Assembly (NCBI GenBank): GCA_002238825.1
Contig: MPNC01000004.1
Span: 131,241-195,240, forward strand
DNA length: 64,000 bases
Origin: SAR202 cluster bacterium bin87
Lineage (GTDB): Bacteria > Chloroflexota > Dehalococcoidia > Lucifugimonadales > UBA3495
Direction of reading: 5' to 3'
Shown here one piece after another: positions 2,516 through 63,321 of this stretch. The notes under the pieces were generated by a model, which saw nothing but the letters and a program-made list of their open reading frames with translations, was not told the DNA's origin and did not search any database. The stretch's first letter is position 1. Each line of letters opens with the position of its first letter. A program made the position numbers and the translations under genes.

Positions 2516-2745
2516 CTCACGCGTACCCAGTTTACCGAAGAGGGACAACTTGCATGGATACACGGGATGGATAGGGTGGATGAGAGGGACTCGTCAGCTT
2601 GTTGAGCATCCCATTGGACCCTATTGTGTGCTCGTTCCATCCACTTTCGCTCTTGACTGATGTAGAGCATCTCATCAGTTCGATCATGTCCATCCTGCGC
2701 ATCCATGCAAACTTCGCCTGCTCCGGGAAAGCGGGTACGCGTGAG
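2516..2745. repeat. MITE-like element, family I, with ATCC/CATG interior
   Basis: Perfect 13-bp terminal inverted repeats (ctcacgcgtaccc at 2516-2528, gggtacgcgtgag at 2733-2745). Flanking 9-mers aacgacagg (2507-2515) and aacgaccga (2746-2754) agree at 7 of 9 positions and look like a worn target duplication. Inside lies a second inverted pair, ttgcatggat near 2550 and atccatgcaa at 2701-2710. The element fills most of the 291-bp convergent gap between the kinase and dnaE2. No ORF in it looks coding. Confidence 0.75.
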
Positions 2746-10218: not shown

Positions 10219-13200
10219 GTGAACGGCGTTCGTCCGCTTGCACTGATCATGGCGGTGGTAACCGCTTGCGTGGCTTTAGCGCCCTTGTGGCCCCACTTCG
10301 CCGGCGGTCCAGCCTCTCGGCCCGCCGAGGTTGCGGAAGGCGCGGTCTTGCATCAGGACTGCGCTGATGACGTGAGCATCACGATATCGAGTCAGTGGGG
10401 TGTAATTGAGCCAGATACCTATACGCTCAAAACCCCACCGGACTATAAGGCTGGAGACGATATTCGGATTTATTACGACGTTACCAATTCCAGCTGTGAC
10501 AAACCAGTCGACGTTACGGTCAAATTGCGCGGCTCTGAAAGCGATGCGCCAATTCATAACGCCGACGCGACGGATGACATGGCCTGCTTCGAGGGGTGCA
10601 CCATCAACGCCGGCGGGACACTATACGGCAACATCGGATGGGACCTGGGCAAACATCCCAACGCCACCGGCGAAAAGGTAGTCGCCACCGTCACAATAAC
10701 CGCGCCGGACGGTTTTGTTGACGCCGACACGAGCAACAACACCGCCACTTCCGCACAGTCAATAAACATCGTCAACGAGGAACCGGAGCCGGCGCCGGAC
10801 ATTGCCGTCAAGTCAGTCAGCGCATCCAAGACTACCGCCGTAATCGGAGAGACGGTCAATTTCACCGTGTCGGTACAAAACGAGGGCGACGCTGACGCGG
10901 AGGCCGACACCACCGTGACGCTGGACCACGGCGCGGATACCACAGCGCTGGATTCGGACACGGTCTCAGCACTCGCCGTCGACGGAGAGAGTTCGGTCAC
11001 GCTCACGTGGGACACCGACGGGGCGGCGGCGGGAGCGCACAGCCTGCGGGCGCTGGCGCAAACGGAGGGCGACGACAACGCGGACAACGACAGCAAGACG
11101 GAGACTGTGACTCTGGTGGAACGGTCGGTGGACGTCGCCGTCAAGTCCGTCACGGCCTCGGCGACTGAAGCGGTGGTCGGGGATACGGTTGACTTCACCG
11201 TCACGCTCGAAAACGACGGCAACGTTGCGGCGGTGTTGCCCGACGTTTCGCTGTACGACGCGGACGGCCCAGAAGACGCCGGTCCCCTGGCATCCGTGAC
11301 CGCCGGCACCATCGCCGTAGGAGACGAAACCACCGCCGCGATCTCCTGGGACACCGACGCAGCGGCAGCCGGTACGTACAGCCTGCGCGTGGTGGCCGCA
11401 GTTGACGGCGACGACGATTCAACCAATGACAGCGCGACCGCGTCGTTCACCTTGCACGATCCGGTGGACGTGGAGTTGAGCTTCACCAGTTCACTGGCTT
11501 CCTCGGCGGTTCAGGGAAATTCGGTGAGCGTGCTGTTTACCCTGACCAACTCGGGAAAGAACGACACGGGCGAAGTGCTGGTCAATCTGTACGTCGCTGA
11601 AGTCGGCCAAGATCAGACGACAGAGGATGCGGCCTCGGACGGAACTGACGGTGCAGAGGAGGAAGATGACGAACCCACCGCGACTGCGACCATTTCGACG
11701 CTGGCCGTCAATGGATCGACATCTGGCACGCTGACATGGGACACCACTGACGCCGTATTGGGGAATTATGAGCTGGAGTTAGTTGCCGTGACCGCCGGGG
11801 ATATAGACGACACGAACAATTCAACGGTGGACTACATCGAAATACGAAACTGGCTCCTGCTCAAAAACGTCTCCCCGACCGACGCCGAGGCCGTGACCGG
11901 CGATACCGTCAAGTTCACGGCGCAAGTCGAAAACGTGGGGCAGGAAGAGCTGACAGATTTGACGGTTGGTCTGTACGAAACGAGGGGTAACGAAGCACTC
12001 GCTTCCGTGACGATTGACACCGCAGCCGCCGGTGATACGGCTGACGCGGCTTTCCAGTGGGACACGGCCGGCCGGGATGCAGGTCAGGTTCACCTGTTCG
12101 TCTCCGTCGGGGCGGACGGCCAAGTTCTCGATGAAGATGACACTCAGAAAACCAGCGTAATTGTTCGCAATCCCATAGTGTTGTCATCGGCAACGCCGGC
12201 ATCCGAGGACAACGTTGCGGGAATCCCGGTGTCAATCAACGTGGAGGTGCTCAACGAAAGCATTGACGAGGCCACCGGCGTAGAGGTCAAACTGGATGGC
12301 GTCGGGAGTTGCGATGATGAGAATAGAAATAAGGAGAAGGACTGCGCAACGCCCGCAGCAATCGCGGCGATCCCGGCCGGCGAGACGGGCGCGGCCGTCC
12401 TGGAGTGGCATACCGCTAAAGTCGAGCCCGGCGAGCACGCCCTGAAAATCGTAGCCAGCGTGGACGGCTACAGCAGCGACGCGAACGATGTTCTGCCGCT
12501 GACCGTAACTCTCCGGGCGCCGGTGATGGCCGTGGCGCTCACGTCAGCGACGATAAATCGCGACGTGGCCGCCGTCGGTCAATCGGTGGAAGTGACGGCC
12601 ACCATCGCCAACCATGGCGAGGTTCCCGTGGCGACGCCGGTAGCACTTTATCTGGTTGCAGAGCTGGAACAGACGCCGGAGGTAGCGAGGGAAACGTCGC
12701 TACCCATTGAACCCGGAGCCAAAGCAGAGGTGACGCTGCGGTGGGACTCCACAGGGGAAGATACGGGTACGCATACCCTGAAAATCGTCACGGAACTTCC
12801 CGAGGACACCACCGGCGATGACAATGAGGATCTTCTGACAGTCGAGCTCTTCCGGTCGGCTTTCGACGGCGCTCACGATGTGGACAGCTGCGTCGAGGAT
12901 GTCCGGGTGAGAGTCACTGAGATCAAGGACCTGAGCGGTCAAATACGCTCGCCGCCGAACTACCTTGTTGGCGAGCAACTGAAGGCCGCGTACCGGATCT
13001 ACAATTTCAGTTGCCAGACGGACATCACACTCGCCGTCACGATGAGCGGCCCGGAGGATCATGCGATCAGCGATTCCAGGACGCTCTGCTTTGCGAATTG
13101 CGTGGTTCCGTTTGGCGGAAAGGCAGAGGGCGAAATCGCGTGGACAATTCCCACGCTGCCGGCCTTGGGTGACCAGCCGATCAACGCTACAGTCACCATT

Positions 13201-16200
13201 GTAACGCCGGAAGACTTCGTGGATGTCGACGATGCCAATAACTCAAACACATCAGCAGACCGTATGAATATCGTCCATCCTGAGGATTTGGTGGTGCGCC
13301 TCGGGGAACAAAACGACGAAAAGGTCAGCACGCGTCAGTCGTTGACCGGGCCGGAATTCGGGGCAGTGGATGTGCGGCTGGTATCGGTTCATCCGCTACA
13401 GGCCACCCTGCCGTTCGCCGCCGCAACCGTCGAGGTGGCTGTTGCGGTGGCAAACGACGGACCGACAACCGAACCGGCAACCGTGCGGTTTGTCTTGAGC
13501 CCCACGGACGGAACACAACCGCAGGAACTGTACGGACATACGATGGTCATTCCAACGGGCGAAACCAGGACGGAGACCGTGGCAGTTCCACTGCGGGACG
13601 TACTGCCCGGAACTCACAGCATCGAAGTCCTGCTTTCCGCGGCGGTCGACAGGTCCCTGAACAACAACACGCAGGTCATTGAAATCACTCGACGAGAGCC
13701 CCTGGTGGATGTCGAGGTGACGGCCGTCTCCATCTCACCCGAAATGCCGTTTCTCGGCGACGCAGCTACTGTTACGCTGACGGTACAGAACAACAGCGAT
13801 ATCGCGCTCCCGCTGACGGTGAATTTATTCCTGGACAACGCGCTCCAGACACCAGCGGAGCAAGACCTCGGAGAACTGGCTGCCAGCGCTCAGTTGGAAA
13901 AGGTGATTACCTGGAGGTTGCCCGCATCGGGCAAATACTTGGGGCAGCGCACACTGAAATTGGCGCTGATTTCAACAGAATACGGCCGCGTGGTCGAGGT
14001 TAGCCGGGACGTAACACTGCATATCGACGCCGAGATTGTCAGCGTTGACGCTGTGCCTGTAGACACAGCCATGCAGGGTGAAGAGGTCGCCATCGAGGTG
14101 GAAGTCAGGAACAACGGGCCGGCCACCGTCAACGTGCCGGTAGCCCTGCACTTCCCGTCGGAAACCAAGGACCCCGAGACACGCAGCCCCAAGGCGCCCG
14201 CAGGGACAACCGGGACCGCCTCGTTCACTTGGAAAACCACAAATTATGCTGTTGGCGAGCACATGCTGACCGCGACCGTGCCGGAGCAGCACAACATCGC
14301 CAGCGGCGCGACCTCGATGGAGTTGCCGTTCCGTGTCTCTCCGCTGGTGGTCACCGCAACGATCGTGGATGTCTCGGCATACCCCACAACGCCGACGGTA
14401 GGCGAACCGGTGACCATCACAGTGACAGTCCGGAACGATGGCCGGATTGCCGCCAACATCCCGGTCACGCTGCACTTCCCTCCGGGTGGCCGGCAGCCTC
14501 ATAGCAAGAAGCCGCGCCTGGATCCGGGAGAAACCGGGACGGTGGTTTTCGAATGGCTCACCGGCAACTATCAACCGGGGACGCACCAGTTCCTCGTCGA
14601 GGTAGCGGCCGTCGACGCTCCGCAGCAGCGCTTCACGATAGACCTGCTGCCGATCGTGGAAAACGTCGCTCTAGTGGGCATGGGCACATTCCCGGTCGAA
14701 ACCGCGATGGTGGGAGAACCGGTAGAAGTGTGGATCGACGTCCACAACGATGGGCCGGTGGCATTGAACGTTCCGGTTCGGCTCACCTTCCCGTCCGCCA
14801 GCGAGAGCCCGGAGGTCCGGTCGCCGCGGGTGGCGCCAGGCGAAACCGCGAGGGTCTGGTTCGAATGGAAAACCTCAAACTACGAACCCGGCATCCACAC
14901 GCTGCGGGCGGCGATCCTGCTCGCCGGCAACCTCACGCTGGGACGCAGCACCGGGGAAATCAGGTTCACCCTGACGCCCCTGGTGATCAACGCGACAATC
15001 GTTGACGTCGCCGTAAATCCGGAGGAGCCGCGGGTAGGGGAACCGGTGACCATCACGGTGACCGTGCGGAATGATGGCCGGATTGCGGCCAACATCCCGG
15101 TAACGCTGCACTTCCCTCCGGGCGGCAGGCAGCCTGACAGTAAGAAGCCGCGCGTGGAACCCGGCGCCGTCGGCTCAGTTTCTTTCACTTGGCGCACCAG
15201 CCGTTATGAGCCCGGCATGCACGCCTTCCTGGTTGAGGCGCCCGGCGACCCACCGTCGTCGCAACGGTTTGAGATCGGATTGCTCCCGCCCATCGTCGAC
15301 GTTGCCATCGTCGGCATGGGCTCAGACCCCAGCGAGACGGCAGTGCAGGGCCAGGAAGTGAGCATCTGGGTGGACGTGATCAACAATGGCCCGTCGGCCC
15401 TGAGCGTGCCCGTGCAGCTCTCGTTCCCGTCGGGCGACAAGCAGCCGGAACGAAAGTCCTCGCGGATCGAACCGGGAGAAATAGTGCGCATCGAGTTCAC
15501 CTGGAAGACCTCCAACTACGATCCCGGAACTCACACTCTTACCGCCACGCTCCTGGCGGAGTACAACATCACCGAACTGGACACATACGCAACAATTCAG
15601 ATCAGGCTCATCTCCGCCCAGTTGATCGCGTCGATAGTGGAAATATCATGGAACCCCGACTCCCCGGTGGTGGGCGAACCGGTGACGATTACGGTGACGG
15701 TTCGCAACGACGGTATCGTAGCGGCCAACATCCCGGTCACGCTGCACTTCCCTCCGGGTGGCCGTCAGCCTCATAGCAAGAAGCCGCGGCTGGATCCGGG
15801 TGAAACCGGGACGGTGGTTTTCGAATGGCTCACCGGCAACTATCACCCGGGAACGCACCGGTTCCTCGTCGAGGTAGCGGCTGTCGACGGTCCCCAGCAG
15901 CGCTTCACCATTGAGCTGCTGCCGATCGTGGAAAACGTCGCTCTAGTGGGTATGGGCACATACCCGGTCGAAACTGCGATGGTGGGCGAGCCGGTAGAAG
16001 TGTGGATCGACGTGCGCAACGATGGGCCGGTAGCTGTGCGCGTTCCGGTTCGGCTCACCTTCCCGTCCGCCAGCAAGCGCCCGGAGGTCCGGTCGCCGCG
16101 GGTGGCGCCGGGCGAAACCGCGAGGGTCTGGTTCGAATGGAAAACCTCAAACTACGAACCCGGCATCCACACGCTGCGGGCGGCGACCCTGCTCGCCGGC

Positions 16201-17871
16201 AACCTCACGCTGGGACGCACCACCGGGGAGATCAGGTTCACCCTGACGCCCCTGGTGATCAACGCGACAATCGTTGACGTCGCCGTAAATCCGGAGGAGC
16301 CGCGGGTCGGGGAACCGGTGACCATCACGGTGACCGTCCGGAACGATGGCCAGGTTGCGGCCAACATCCCGGTAACGCTGCACTTCCCTCCGGGCGGCAG
16401 GCAGCCTGACAGTAAGAAGCCGCGCGTGGAACCCGGCGCCGTCGGCGCAGTTTCTTTCACTTGGCGCACCAGCCGTTATGAGCCCGGCATACACGCCTTC
16501 TTGGTTGAGGCGCCCGGCGACCCACCGTCGTCGCAACGGTTTGAGATCGAATTGCTCCCGCCCATCGTCAACGTTGCCATCGTCGGCATGGGCTCAGACC
16601 CCAGCGAGACGGCAGTGCAAGGCCAGGAAGTGAAAATCTGGGTGGACGTGATCAACAATGGCCCGTTGGCCCTGAACGTGCCCGTGCAGCTCTCGTTCCC
16701 GTCGGGCGACAAGCAGCCGGAACGAAAGTCCTCCCGGATCGAACCGGGAGAAATAGTGCGCATCGAGTTCACCTGGAAGACCTCCAACTACGATCCCGGA
16801 ACTCACACTCTTACGGCCACGCTCCTGGCGGAGTACAACATCACCGAACTGGACACATCCGCAGCAATTCAGATCAGGCTCATCTCCGCCCAGTTGATCG
16901 CGTCGATAGTGGAAATATCATGGAACCCCGACTCCCCGGTGGTAGGCGAACCGGTGCGCATTACGGTGACGGTACGCAACGACGGTATCGTTGCGGCCAA
17001 CATCCCGGTAACGCTGCACTTTCCTTCAGGGGACAGGCAACCGGAAACGAGGCGGCCGCGCGTAGCGCGTGGGGGCGTCGGCACGGCTTCCTTCACGTGG
17101 CGCACCAGCCGCTACGAGCCTGGAGATCACGTCTTCCGAGTGCAGATCCCCGGCATGGCGGGCGCGACAAGAACGTTCGAGATAGGACTGAGGCCGCCCG
17201 AAGTCGATTTCGCCATTGCCGGTTTCGAGGCTCCGGATCCATCGCATCCCATAGTGAAGGGCGACTGGGTTGAGATGACTGTAGTGGTACAGAATCAGGG
17301 GCCATACGCGGGCCGGGGCACGGTCTACCTGCTCGACAGCGCCAGCCTCGATACGATGTACGAACAAGGCGCAAGCCTGGAACCGGGCGAGTCCAGAGAA
17401 GTGGAATTCACCTGGAAGACCCTGCGGTACCCGGTGGGCGGCTACGAATTGCTGGCTCGCGTCGACGCGGAGTATGACACCGACCCCGACAACGATGAGT
17501 CGGAGCGGGTACACGTCCACCTGCTGACCGACCGCGACATCACGGTCGGGTTTGGCAACAACGTGCGGCCGGCGGTTTTCTCCGAGCCGACGTCGGGAGC
17601 CGACCTGTCGTCGATTCCCCGGTATCGCAACGACATTATGGTCGTCGTCAGGGGGCAAATCCTGATTGATCTGCCGGCTTCTCCGGCCTTGGACTCGCCG
17701 ATGGGCGTATCGCCGAAGCCAACGGGCGGGAATTACGATCCGCCCCGGATGTACTGGCAATGGCGTTCCGCCCAGCTCTCTCCCTGGGAGTGCGCGCGGT
17801 ACCAGGGGACCATCGGTGAGAGCCTGCCGCGCGCGGTGCTGTGTCCCCGTGCGCCCAGCGTGGTTCGCTAA
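10219..17871 (+). CDS. Giant secreted CARDB-repeat protein
   Basis: 2550 residues from a GTG start. The N-terminus (PLALIMAVVTACVALAPLW) is a signal peptide or anchor. The rest is about 19 CARDB-like beta-sandwich modules of roughly 105 residues, each with V(G/Q)xxVxxxVxVxNxG and ending near F(T/E)WKTxxYxPGxHxL. Two further modules (about 48-185 and 891-1035) share four cysteines (C-E/D-DV start, NxSC, CFxxC). Four modules were duplicated in tandem recently (about 14430-16973). The C-terminal 100 residues are unlike the rest and carry no LPxTG or obvious anchor. CARDB domains occur in bacterial and archaeal surface proteins and bind protein or carbohydrate ligands; adhesion or scaffolding is therefore inferred. 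No catalytic domain was seen. Confidence 0.88.
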   Translation: MNGVRPLALIMAVVTACVALAPLWPHFAGGPASRPAEVAEGAVLHQDCADDVSITISSQWGVIEPDTYTLKTPPDYKAGDDIRIYYDVTNSSCDKPVDVTVKLRGSESDAPIHNADATDDMACFEGCTINAGGTLYGNIGWDLGKHPNATGEKVVATVTITAPDGFVDADTSNNTATSAQSINIVNEEPEPAPDIAVKSVSASKTTAVIGETVNFTVSVQNEGDADAEADTTVTLDHGADTTALDSDTVSALAVDGESSVTLTWDTDGAAAGAHSLRALAQTEGDDNADNDSKTETVTLVERSVDVAVKSVTASATEAVVGDTVDFTVTLENDGNVAAVLPDVSLYDADGPEDAGPLASVTAGTIAVGDETTAAISWDTDAAAAGTYSLRVVAAVDGDDDSTNDSATASFTLHDPVDVELSFTSSLASSAVQGNSVSVLFTLTNSGKNDTGEVLVNLYVAEVGQDQTTEDAASDGTDGAEEEDDEPTATATISTLAVNGSTSGTLTWDTTDAVLGNYELELVAVTAGDIDDTNNSTVDYIEIRNWLLLKNVSPTDAEAVTGDTVKFTAQVENVGQEELTDLTVGLYETRGNEALASVTIDTAAAGDTADAAFQWDTAGRDAGQVHLFVSVGADGQVLDEDDTQKTSVIVRNPIVLSSATPASEDNVAGIPVSINVEVLNESIDEATGVEVKLDGVGSCDDENRNKEKDCATPAAIAAIPAGETGAAVLEWHTAKVEPGEHALKIVASVDGYSSDANDVLPLTVTLRAPVMAVALTSATINRDVAAVGQSVEVTATIANHGEVPVATPVALYLVAELEQTPEVARETSLPIEPGAKAEVTLRWDSTGEDTGTHTLKIVTELPEDTTGDDNEDLLTVELFRSAFDGAHDVDSCVEDVRVRVTEIKDLSGQIRSPPNYLVGEQLKAAYRIYNFSCQTDITLAVTMSGPEDHAISDSRTLCFANCVVPFGGKAEGEIAWTIPTLPALGDQPINATVTIVTPEDFVDVDDANNSNTSADRMNIVHPEDLVVRLGEQNDEKVSTRQSLTGPEFGAVDVRLVSVHPLQATLPFAAATVEVAVAVANDGPTTEPATVRFVLSPTDGTQPQELYGHTMVIPTGETRTETVAVPLRDVLPGTHSIEVLLSAAVDRSLNNNTQVIEITRREPLVDVEVTAVSISPEMPFLGDAATVTLTVQNNSDIALPLTVNLFLDNALQTPAEQDLGELAASAQLEKVITWRLPASGKYLGQRTLKLALISTEYGRVVEVSRDVTLHIDAEIVSVDAVPVDTAMQGEEVAIEVEVRNNGPATVNVPVALHFPSETKDPETRSPKAPAGTTGTASFTWKTTNYAVGEHMLTATVPEQHNIASGATSMELPFRVSPLVVTATIVDVSAYPTTPTVGEPVTITVTVRNDGRIAANIPVTLHFPPGGRQPHSKKPRLDPGETGTVVFEWLTGNYQPGTHQFLVEVAAVDAPQQRFTIDLLPIVENVALVGMGTFPVETAMVGEPVEVWIDVHNDGPVALNVPVRLTFPSASESPEVRSPRVAPGETARVWFEWKTSNYEPGIHTLRAAILLAGNLTLGRSTGEIRFTLTPLVINATIVDVAVNPEEPRVGEPVTITVTVRNDGRIAANIPVTLHFPPGGRQPDSKKPRVEPGAVGSVSFTWRTSRYEPGMHAFLVEAPGDPPSSQRFEIGLLPPIVDVAIVGMGSDPSETAVQGQEVSIWVDVINNGPSALSVPVQLSFPSGDKQPERKSSRIEPGEIVRIEFTWKTSNYDPGTHTLTATLLAEYNITELDTYATIQIRLISAQLIASIVEISWNPDSPVVGEPVTITVTVRNDGIVAANIPVTLHFPPGGRQPHSKKPRLDPGETGTVVFEWLTGNYHPGTHRFLVEVAAVDGPQQRFTIELLPIVENVALVGMGTYPVETAMVGEPVEVWIDVRNDGPVAVRVPVRLTFPSASKRPEVRSPRVAPGETARVWFEWKTSNYEPGIHTLRAATLLAGNLTLGRTTGEIRFTLTPLVINATIVDVAVNPEEPRVGEPVTITVTVRNDGQVAANIPVTLHFPPGGRQPDSKKPRVEPGAVGAVSFTWRTSRYEPGIHAFLVEAPGDPPSSQRFEIELLPPIVNVAIVGMGSDPSETAVQGQEVKIWVDVINNGPLALNVPVQLSFPSGDKQPERKSSRIEPGEIVRIEFTWKTSNYDPGTHTLTATLLAEYNITELDTSAAIQIRLISAQLIASIVEISWNPDSPVVGEPVRITVTVRNDGIVAANIPVTLHFPSGDRQPETRRPRVARGGVGTASFTWRTSRYEPGDHVFRVQIPGMAGATRTFEIGLRPPEVDFAIAGFEAPDPSHPIVKGDWVEMTVVVQNQGPYAGRGTVYLLDSASLDTMYEQGASLEPGESREVEFTWKTLRYPVGGYELLARVDAEYDTDPDNDESERVHVHLLTDRDITVGFGNNVRPAVFSEPTSGADLSSIPRYRNDIMVVVRGQILIDLPASPALDSPMGVSPKPTGGNYDPPRMYWQWRSAQLSPWECARYQGTIGESLPRAVLCPRAPSVVR
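14430..16973 (+). repeat. 1272-bp in-frame tandem duplication inside the CARDB gene
   Basis: Landmarks recur at a constant offset of 1272 bp: ccggtcacgctgcac at 14461 and 15733, gttgccatcgtcggcatggg at 15301 and 16573, and tggaaccccgactcccc at 15649 and 16921. The unit is 424 codons, four CARDB modules (PHSKKPRLDPGE, PEVRSPRVAPGE, PDSKKPRVEPGA and PERKSSRIEPGE types). The copies are nearly identical, so the event is recent. Boundaries are approximate. Confidence 0.93.
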
Positions 17872-22199: not shown

Positions 22200-22363
22200 C
22201 CTCATGCGTACCCGGATGCGCACCCGGTTCGTCATTGCGACCCCCGCACTTGATGCGGGGGGTGGCAATCTCGTTGCGGCTAGGATCGTCGCTACATCAA
22301 CGGGATTGCCACGTCGCCTTGCTCTTCGCATTGACAGGTTTGCGGCAACTCGGTACGCGCGAG
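22200..22363. repeat. MITE-like element, family I, GCAATGAC interior
   Basis: Ends ctcatgcgtaccc (22201-22213) and cggtacgcgcgag (22351-22363) are family I inverted repeats with a few changes. Flanking 9-mers ttctaccca (22191-22199) and atcgaccca (22364-22372) match at 7 of 9. The interior is the cgtcattgcga ... tggcaatctcg / gggattgccacg ... cattgacag hairpin. It occupies most of the 364-bp gap upstream of the hydrolase gene; nothing else is visible there. Confidence 0.7.
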
Positions 22364-24276: not shown

Positions 24277-24455
24277 CCTCGCGCTTCCCCCGTTTGTCAT
24301 CGCGAGGAGCGCAGCGACGTGGCGATCTCGTTCCCACAGTAGAGTTCCTTGCCCTGGCGAGATTGCCGCGCTGCGCTCGCAGTGACGGTTTTGTGAAGCG
24401 AGATTGCCGCGCGTTGCTCGCAATGACGGTTCCGGTGAACGTGGATACGCGTGAG
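24277..24455. repeat. MITE-like element, family I, GCAATGAC interior
   Basis: The right end is ggatacgcgtgag (24443-24455); the left end is a weaker ctcgcgcttccc. The 9-mers gggttggct (24268-24276) and cggttggct (24456-24464) match at 8 of 9 and flank it directly. The interior has two or three copies of the gagattgccgcgc...cgctcgcaatgac unit. This element is the main content of the 472-bp gap 24108-24579. An inverted pair, tcattccggc / gccggaatga, lies near 24127. Confidence 0.7.
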
Positions 24456-25406: not shown

Positions 25407-25538
25407 CAGGGCCTGTGCAAAGTTCGTCCTCCCGCTCATTGTGAGCTTGTCGAACCACGACTCCGGCAACGGCAGCATCCTTCGACCGGCTCAGGATGAG
25501 CGGAAACCAACGAAGCCCATTGCTTTGCACAGGCCCTG
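25407..25538. repeat. MITE-like element, family II, copy 1
   Basis: 132 bp bounded by a perfect 16-bp inverted repeat (cagggcctgtgcaaag / ctttgcacaggccctg). Direct repeats cgaagcgg lie at 25399-25406 and 25540-25547, one base from the right end, consistent with an 8-9 bp target duplication. The interior holds gagcttgtcgaa and catccttcgaccggctcagg segments shared with the copy at 55202. It lies in the 395-bp gap 25321-25715, which holds no gene. Confidence 0.8.
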
Positions 25539-30870: not shown

Positions 30871-31008
30871 CCGCACGCGTACCCAGTTGCACCGGAACGG
30901 TCATTGCGAGCGGAGCGCGGCAATCTCGTGTTGGCAACGGGGTCTCTTCCGGCAACGGGATCGCCACGTCGCTGCGCACCTCGCGATGACAAACCGGGTA
31001 CGCGTGAG
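30871..31008. repeat. MITE-like element, family I, GCAATGAC interior
   Basis: Ends gcacgcgtaccc (30873-30884) and gggtacgcgtgag (30996-31008). The 9-mers cgggaaaga (30862-30870) and cgagaaaga (31009-31017) match at 8 of 9 as a target duplication. The interior is one full hairpin: gtcattgcgagcggagcgcg ... atcgccacgtcgctgcgcac. The rest of the 455-bp gap 30702-31156 contains an ATCC-type repeat near 30790 and a hairpin at 31093. Confidence 0.8.
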
Positions 31009-38975: not shown

Positions 38976-39262
38976 TACCGGGATAAACAGGATGAACGGG
39001 ATGGACAGGATACGGTTCGGTTGATCCGCCAATCAATTTTCGGGCCTCACGCGTACCCAGTTTGTCATCGCGAGGAGCGTAGCGACATGGCGATCTCGTT
39101 CCCGCAGCAGTGTTCCTTGCCCCAACGAGATTGCCGCGCTTCGCTCGCAATGACGCTCTGATGGCACAACGAGATTGCCGCGCTTCGCTCGCAATGACAG
39201 TTCCAGTGAAACTGGGCACGGCGAGATTGCCGCGCTTCGCTCGCAATGACGGTTTGATGGCA
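38976..39262. repeat. Compound repeat block (ATCC-type plus family I)
   Basis: The 505-bp gap 38872-39376 holds an ATCC-type repeat (accgggataaacaggatga near 38980), a family I left end (ctcacgcgtaccc at 39046-39058) and four units of gagattgccgcgcttcgctc followed by gcaatgac in tandem up to about 39250. No clear right end or target duplication was found, so this copy may have rearranged. No gene is seen in the gap. Confidence 0.7.
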
Positions 39263-41117: not shown

Positions 41118-41320
41118 ACGAACGAGATTGCCGCGCTGCGCTCGCAATGACATAGGACCTACGCAGTTGGGCGGCATAACAACCGTCATTCCCGCGAAAG
41201 CGGGAATCCAGTGACCGAAATCGTTAACAGTGTTCCAGATGCGTTCACAGGAAAGTCTATTGATTCCTGCGAAAGCAGGAATAACGGGTTTGTAATTTCG
41301 AGGGCGTAACTCCTATTACA
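41118..41320. repeat. GCAATGAC unit followed by family III element
   Basis: A gagattgccgcgctgcgctc unit ends in gcaatga at about 41150 and is followed at once by a family III element: left end cataggacctacgcagttg (41151-41169), right end agggcgtaactcctattac, with inner hairpins cattcccgcgaaagcgggaat and attcctgcgaaagcaggaat. It fills the 308-bp gap 41087-41394 between the small ORF and the amidase. Confidence 0.75.
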
Positions 41321-47463: not shown

Positions 47464-47651
47464 TTTGTCACCGCGAGGGGCAAAGGGACGTGGCGATCTC
47501 GTAACCCACGCGGCACTCGTTCATCGACGAGATTGCCACGCTGCGCTCGCAATGACATAGGACTTACGCAGTTGGGCAGCCTAACAACCGTCATTCCCGC
47601 GAAAGCGGGAATGACGGGTTTGTAATTTCAAGTGCGTAATTCCTCTGACAG
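47464..47651. repeat. Family I-type interior followed by short family III element
   Basis: A gcgatctcg ... gagattgccacgctgcgctc unit ends in gcaatga at 47565 and is joined directly to cataggacttacgcagttg. The family III copy is short (about 80 bp), with one inner hairpin cattcccgcgaaagcgggaat, ending tgcgtaattcctctg. The 329-bp gap 47407-47735 holds this and the terminator only. Confidence 0.75.
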
Positions 47652-50355: not shown

Positions 50356-53640
<3,285 letters not shown>

Positions 53641-54940: not shown

Positions 54941-55057
54941 GCAATGCTCCCGATTACGTGTTTCCGAATACTTCCAAGTAGGGCTGACTATAACATGCCC
55001 GTGAGGAAGGCCGCAAACGACGGGCGAAGCAGCAACTGTTCAGAGTTGCGGGGAAAG

Positions 55058-55168
55058 TGTCATTGCGAGCGCAGCGCGGCAATCCCGTTGGCGCAAGGGA
55101 GTCCTTCGAGACAAGCGTGGCTGCTACGGCGTCGAGATTGCCACGGCGCAAGCGCCTCGCAATGACAA
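55058..55168. repeat. GCAATGAC hairpin repeat
   Basis: One full unit: tcattgcgagcgcagcgcgg ... gagattgccacggcgcaagc ending gcaatgac. Terminal family I repeats are not recognisable. It lies with a family II element in the 436-bp gap 54941-55376, which has no gene. Confidence 0.65.
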
Positions 55169-55201
55169 CCTCCTGAATTCTGAACAGTTACGCGAAGCAA
55201 T

Positions 55202-55352
55202 CAGGTCTTGTGCAAAGTCGCCTTATAGCCTTTTACCGCTCATCCTGAGATTGTCGTATCATCCTGAGCTTGTCGAAGGATGCTTCCTGCAATTCGGAGG
55301 ATGGCTCGACAGGCTCACCATGAGCGGATGAAACGACTTTGCACAGGCCCTG
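55202..55352. repeat. MITE-like element, family II, copy 2
   Basis: 151 bp between caggtcttgtgcaaag (55202-55217; two changes from the family end) and ctttgcacaggccctg (55337-55352; identical). The interior repeats tcatcctgagcttgtcgaag and related segments, as in the copy at 25407. No target duplication is evident. Confidence 0.75.
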
Positions 55353-57529: not shown

Positions 57530-57780
57530 GATGTCATTGCGAGCGCAGCGCGGCAATCTCGTTGCGGCCAGGATCGTCGTTACGCCAACGGGATTGCCGC
57601 GTCGCTTCGCTCCTCGCAATGACAACCGAAAGATCCTGATGGGAAAGGCCTGGCCTTTCCGAAGTCCACGCCTGCAGCCCTTGCGGTGCAAACTGGCATT
57701 ACCGCGAAAGCGGTAATCCAGAAGGTCTCGGTTCACGGGAGCCTCTGGATTCCTGCTTTCGCAGGAAAGACGGGGCAACT
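57530..57780. repeat. GCAATGAC hairpin plus CGAAAGCG hairpins
   Basis: A full hairpin unit (tcattgcgagcgcagcgcgg ... attgccgcgtcgcttcgctc, ending gcaatgac) is flanked by ggaaaggc / gcctttcc palindromes near 57500 and 57640. Two inverted hairpins follow, attaccgcgaaagcggtaat and attcctgctttcgcaggaa, which are family III interior sequence without its ends. It occupies most of the 435-bp gap 57421-57855. Confidence 0.7.
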
Positions 57781-57795
57781 TTGGAAAGGGCCTAT

Positions 57796-60385: not shown

Positions 60386-60405
60386 CCCTCAGCCACACGG
60401 CAGAG

Positions 60406-60542
60406 TTCACACGTGCCTCTTTGTCATCGCGAGGAGCGCAGCGACGTGGCGATCTCGTTCCCGCAGCGGTGTTCCTTGCCCCAGCGAGATTGCCGCGCTA
60501 CGCTCGCAATGACAATTCCAGAGAAAATGGGCATCTGTGAAC
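60406..60542. repeat. Family I-like element with variant ends
   Basis: Ends ttcacacgtgcc and gggcatctgtgaa are inverted repeats of a variant type. The 9-mers acggcagag (60397-60405) and acggcgggg (60543-60551) match at 7 of 9. The interior holds gcgaggagcgcagcgacgtg and gagattgccgcgctacgctc, ending gcaatgac. Confidence 0.65.
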
Positions 60543-63161: not shown

Positions 63162-63321
63162 GCTCACGCGTATCCATTCTGTCATCGTGAGGAGCGATGC
63201 GACGTGGCGGTCTCATTCCCGCAGCAGTGTTCGTTGCCCCAGCGAGATTGCCGCGCTTCGCTCGCAATGACAGTACCGGCGAGTTCGCAGTGACAGTGCC
63301 GGCGAAGCGGGTACGGGTGAG
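63162..63321. repeat. MITE-like element, family I, with perfect 9-bp target duplication
   Basis: Left end ctcacgcgtatcc (63163-63175), right end gggtacgggtgag (63309-63321). The 9-mer ggcgccgcc flanks it at 63153-63161 and 63322-63330 with no mismatch. The interior holds gaggagcgatgcgacgtggc and gagattgccgcgcttcgctc, ending gcaatgac. This copy best shows that the family inserted as a unit. Confidence 0.85.

Follow-up and report, generated by a model that had tools for sequence, protein, structure and literature searches.

The window analysed here, a 64,000-nucleotide stretch of the host genome (G000:C9:131241-195240; genome of 4.96 Mb in 67 contigs), holds several dispersed segments with inverted ends, which raises the question of whether they are mobile elements or ordinary intergenic palindromes. 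A first-pass annotation had read them as non-autonomous elements mobilised in trans, with 9-bp target duplications. We found common ends, target duplications, sites that are empty in relatives, an autonomous partner and common cores, and by structure the assignment of the window elements to IS4-mobilised MITEs is close to settled. The full reading, to which we give a probability of roughly 0.93, is that they are MITEs with IS4 ends that an IS4 transposase would have mobilised in trans, with palindrome cores as probable passengers; we infer both the mobilisation in trans and the passenger relation of the cores from sequence comparison.

Family I elements and their target duplications

All five annotated family I elements are present in the sequence. 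The starts given for four of them (22200, 24277, 30871 and 63162) each lay one base too far left, and moving them to 22201, 24278, 30872 and 63163 turned their flanking repeats into 10-mers. The element at 2516-2745 (230 bp), which has a GGATNNACAGGAT-type interior, is flanked by AACGACAGG and AACGACCGA with a 9-mer agreement of 7/9. Flanks agree at 8/10 for 22201-22363 (163 bp; TTCTACCCAC and ATCGACCCAC), at 9/10 for 24278-24455 (178 bp, with ATTGCGAG cores; GGGTTGGCTC and CGGTTGGCTC) and for 30872-31008 (137 bp, the modal type, with two inverted cores; CGGGAAAGAC and CGAGAAAGAC), and at 10/10 for 63163-63321 (159 bp; GGCGCCGCCG on both sides). Given the base composition of the window, the chance of such a match per pair is 5.9e-5 for at least 9/10, 7.5e-4 for at least 8/10 and 2.2e-3 for at least 7/9. 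The variant copy announced near 60406 lies at 60405-60542 (138 bp) and combines a family I interior with altered ends (GTTCACACGTGCC and GTTCACAGATGCC), and the partial copies expected near 39046 and 52573 are one-ended: 39046-39154 retains the left end and cores, while 52572-52700 is degenerate. Rfam gave zero matches within the 64-kb window. An unrelated feature of the window is a 2,550-aa ORF at 10219-17871 with five 636-bp tandem repeats, which are 61-85% identical to the reference copy.

The genome-wide search with the 13-bp ends returned 231 CTCACGCGTACCC ends in the host genome versus 3 for a reversed-pattern control (at most one mismatch). Within the window, the end 13-mer alone was not enriched (24 matches versus 31 expected at up to three mismatches), and the signal needs either pairing or genome scale. 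Most CTCACGCGTACCC ends belong to paired elements with a modal length of 137-138 bp. For statistics on the target-site duplications (TSDs), we used 84 paired family I elements from the fetched part of the host genome after removal of duplicates; these are short, non-coding and bounded by terminal inverted repeats (TIRs) with the consensus CTCACGCGTACCCAGTTT.

At k=10, flank identity among the 84 elements was 0.575, as opposed to 0.282 for shuffled partners, so that random pairs do not agree equally well. At most one mismatch in ten (9/10 or better) was found for 25 of the 84 versus 0.36 expected, a second duplication class with five perfect matches appeared at k=9, and the signal was absent relative to shuffles at k of 8 or less and of 11 or more. 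The best-fitting length was 10 bp in 25 elements, 9 bp in 10 and 8 bp in one. The remaining 48 had no clear duplication, which is expected of old copies but is no proof of age; the mixed preservation fits the age spread suggested by decayed ends. The flanking repeats of the first-pass annotation therefore stand, and their length has to be changed from 9 bp to a constant 10 bp with a minority of 9 bp.

To look for empty sites, syntenic stretches from nine sister species were compared with the window. In relatives, the element and exactly 10 further bp were missing at 22201 (G010, G012 and G013), 24278 (G013) and 63163 (G010). In G012 and G013, the empty site at 22201 reads GGCGCAACCA-ATCGACCCAC-GAAAGGCGG, with a single copy of the 10-mer. 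The element at 2516 is likewise absent from relatives, where the orthologous intergenic sequence has diverged too far for an empty-site comparison (length offset also -10 in G013, and -13 in G010), and the flank of 30872 does not align in relatives. For nine younger elements outside the window, we joined the flanks minus one duplication and searched the genus. Four of the nine joins were spanned uninterrupted in one or more relatives (L020 in G010, G012, G003 and G013; L052 in G012; L003 in G003; L064 in G013), with a nearly full span of the L064 join also in G012. Empty sites are thus present for window elements as well as for younger copies, which answers the objection that relatives might lack them.

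An IS4-family partner with the same ends

The window had been described as free of a transposase, and none with these ends occurs there, all IS matches of the host lying on other contigs. The proposed search for an insertion sequence with matching ends did identify a partner: a 1,181-bp IS4-family element that encodes a 360-aa transposase, has 18-bp ends (CTCACGCGTACCC[AG][CG]TTT) identical to those of family I and is intact in a sister species (OX638345.1). This complete chromosome, G010, carries three copies with identical transposases, and G013 and G004 have one intact copy each, the latter with an insertion near its left end. Intact copies are flanked by 9-10-bp TSDs (CATATTGACG, CCCGCAACC, ATCCTCACG and AATGCTCAC). 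The transposase (P0001) matches the profiles NF033591 IS4 with 157.2 bits (cut-off 152) and PF01609 with 46.7 bits, and contains the full YREK motif (Y-2-R-3-E-6-K) as YRKRMQPEQYFRDGK. IS4 sensu stricto is defined by a complete YREK motif, direct repeats of about 10 bp and TIRs of 10-40 bp (PMC2266710); the partner has 9-10-bp TSDs in seven IS copies and an 18-bp TIR. In one G013 locus (L120, 1497-2826), an intact IS4 copy lies right beside a family I MITE, and its duplicated 9-mer AATGCTCAC abuts the MITE end.

In the host genome, only one of the PF01609 loci (L093) is flanked by family I ends; it is a frameshifted relic of 1,199 bp (G000:C64:128-1326), and beyond a 5' fragment on contig C19 no further copy, and no intact one, was found. 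The family I copies would thus date from past activity or rely on an IS that is missing from the assembly. Within the genus, 11 of the 14 species, the host among them, have exact ends, and 6 of 14 have the IS protein. G003 and G012 have many ends and no detected IS, so that the two are not found together in every species. The MAGs are incomplete and contigs may break at IS copies, as for G004 and G008, where contigs end within IS4. Outside the genus, the exact end was matched only once in the sampled family and order, and the IS protein was absent from all 36 genomes from other genera of the family. Named relatives sharing this IS are MAGs of uncultured Dehalococcoidia. A 62%-identical transposase from another Dehalococcoidia MAG has kept the family I ends together with 9-10-bp TSDs (ATTACCCCC, TGATTTTGGG and GTACAATAAT), and a plasmid collection contained no relative of the IS4 partner.

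The similarity between the MITEs and IS4 is restricted to the ends. They have no interior in common, and we therefore rejected the idea that the MITEs arose from the IS by internal deletion; sharing only the ends with an autonomous IS is usual for prokaryotic MITEs (PMC3852290). Also rejected as an IS was a G008 locus (L098) with a 1,191-bp end pair, which consists of two MITEs flanking a non-transposase gene that by eye is methyltransferase-like. We propose that the MITEs are non-coding segments bounded by the 18-bp IS4 TIR CTCACGCGTACCCRNTTT, that the transposase from an autonomous copy would bind these ends in trans and excise the element, and that insertion by a staggered cut of 10 bp, sometimes 9 bp, would produce the flanking repeats. 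The interiors are REP-like palindromic dimers (GTCATYGCGAG...CTCGCRATGAC, and others) that do not derive from the IS.

Palindromic cores within several end families

The palindromic core GTCATYGCGAGCGNAGCGNGGCAATCTCG, mostly as an inverted pair, was found in 66 of the 84 family I elements. Another 18/84, among them 22201, whose core is only degenerate, were scored as having ACAGGAT-type interiors of several lengths, and there are a few others; family I ends thus also enclose unrelated interiors. A 29-nt core was present in 63/84 family I, 20/27 type II and 20/20 type III elements, in total 103/131; the 2,620 shuffled elements all lacked it. In the fetched part of the host genome, type III elements have GTAACTGTTCAGA ends, a length of 160 bp and 8-bp TSDs (15/20 perfect, 20/20 within one mismatch), and type II elements have CAGGGCCTTTCCAAAGT ends, lengths of 144-145 bp and 9-bp TSDs (10/27 perfect). 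TSD length thus follows the end type in all three families despite common interiors. The offset of the core from the end is 28 nt in family I (44/63), 24 nt in type II (20/20) and 27 nt in type III (19/20).

Both additional families are represented in the window. A type III MITE at 55032-55191 (160 bp) has IS66-type ends (GYAACTGTTCAGA), an 8/8 TSD (GCGAAGCA) and the same core as family I. A type II MITE with CAGGGCCTNTNCAAAGT ends at 25407-25538 (132 bp) is without the ATTGCGAG core; this copy and those with the same ends at 55202-55352 and 57649-57794 contain other palindromes, of the CATCCTGAGCTTGTCGAAGGATG type or dRS3-like. Beside an IS4 copy in OX638345.1, we came by chance upon an IS66 element bounded by type III ends (L179:795-2274); it matches PF03050 with 139 bits and has the 8-bp TSD ACAAACGC. 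The host genome has type III MITEs but no IS66. The CAGGG ends of type II are presumably ISAs1-type, and among the fetched loci we found no ISAs1-type autonomous partner for them.

In the sister species G012, from which smaller stretches were fetched, core-bearing elements likewise have ends of family I and of type III. Other Chloroflexota genera also have the core, in stand-alone inverted pairs that lack these ends (17/301 genomes, host included). In a MAG from another Chloroflexota class, a 3.4-kb contig carries a family I element with core (L206, G136:C4, 270-450), which may reflect recent transfer or misbinning. End and core sequences had no match in the literature searched.

A fourth type consists of 163-bp elements with TAGGACTTACGCA ends and dRS3-like CGTC palindromes, nested in cores at TGACA. 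In the window, type IV copies at 41153-41315, 53424-53586 and 47558-47645 are all inserted at one and the same TGACA site of the ATTGCGAG core and are apparently site-preferring. CGTC-tagged REPs are characterised by a CGTC/TGTC tag, an AT-starting stem of 8-9 bp, a loop of 4-5 nt and a CCA tail (PMC3733652). The type IV interior has this organisation (CGTCATTCCCGC-GAAA-GCGGGAATCCA at 41188, similar at 53457). Core A (ATTGCGAG) has T or C before GTCAT in most copies and a bulged stem (5+3 bp) that starts with AT, and is without the CCA tail.

Alternative explanations and known systems

Two other explanations of the window elements were weighed. They might be REP/BIME-type palindromes that owe their spread to a RAYT-like tyrosine transposase or to slippage during replication, with the CTCACGCG ends merely a part of the palindrome. 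Such an origin would account for interiors that are REP-like inverted dimers and for core pairs without IS ends in other Chloroflexota genera, but the TSDs of fixed 10 or 9 bp abut the CTCACGCG ends and not the core, IS4 is bounded by the same CTCACGCG ends, and unrelated interiors lie between them, which makes this origin very improbable. Still harder to credit is that the ends form a bidirectional terminator or protein-binding palindrome under selection at orthologous sites, with flank matches due to chance. The family I elements are indeed intergenic and fold well (z = -2.8 for 30872-31008), yet orthologous sites are empty in relatives, the TSD statistics far exceed those of shuffles and the ends are shared with an autonomous IS.

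The IS4-mobilised MITE reading leaves room for two accounts of how the cores came to be shared. Their presence also in IS66-type (8-bp TSD) and CAGGG-type (9-bp TSD) MITEs suggests that the palindromes act as interchangeable passengers. A mobile REP dimer could instead have been captured once per MITE family by a founder MITE, followed by three independent amplifications, which is compatible with the MITE reading and rivals core exchange only. The one preferred core offset per family is as expected of single founders; against this, several further types of interior are seen in family I and two or more in type II, so that more than one interior was taken up under one end pair. We consider single capture a serious possibility, at a little below even odds.

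The MITE finding alone is ordinary, and the modularity of the core across end families is the more unusual part. The first-pass annotation had placed trans-mobilised MITEs behind much of the anonymous palindrome DNA; this holds for the host genome, where 103 of the 131 elements of the three end families carry the core. Our data suggest that CGTC-type REP palindromes spread as passengers of IS ends. We tentatively extend this to the whole CGTC superfamily in bacteria, as interchangeable cargo in 'end-core-core-end' units moved by IS4, IS66 and others with ends and cores re-assorted, an extension somewhat more likely wrong than right. CGTC-tagged REPs, including Neisseria dRS3 and Rickettsia RPE, are described from five phyla as elements that 'apparently lack a dedicated transposase', one hypothesis being that a wide range of transposases mobilises them (PMC3733652). 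With ends, TSD lengths, empty sites and partners visible in one genus, this hypothesis, as stated there, becomes testable. As a practical rule, IS ends should be sought about 18-28 nt outside orphan palindromes.

Compared with known systems, the partner shares with the IS4 family a DDE transposase, the full YREK motif, a TSD of about 10 bp and short TIRs with CT ends (PMC2266710). Among its subgroups, IS10 comes nearest in its CT ends and its size, but its listed duplication is 9 bp (PMC2266710), and the present TIR is CTCACGCGTACCCRNTTT. REPINs and RAYT-mobilised REPs are likewise high-copy, intergenic, paired palindromes; they have a GTAG tag and tyrosine-transposase junctions, whereas the present cores have TGTC/CGTC, no GTAG and DDE-type TSDs. 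The TGTC/CGTC tag, the AT-starting stem and the inverted dimers are common to CGTC-tagged REPs, among them dRS3 and RPE-4/6 (PMC3733652), with type IV having CGTCATTCCCGCGAAAGCGGGAATCCA. While those REPs are reported there without a transposase link, the present palindromes are bounded by IS ends with IS-specific TSDs. Bacterial MITEs such as NEMIS, Nezha and ERIC (PMC3733652) share lengths of 70-300 bp, TIRs, TSDs and the lack of an ORF; the present elements differ in that their REP-like palindromic interiors recur, within one genome, in MITEs whose ends are unrelated.
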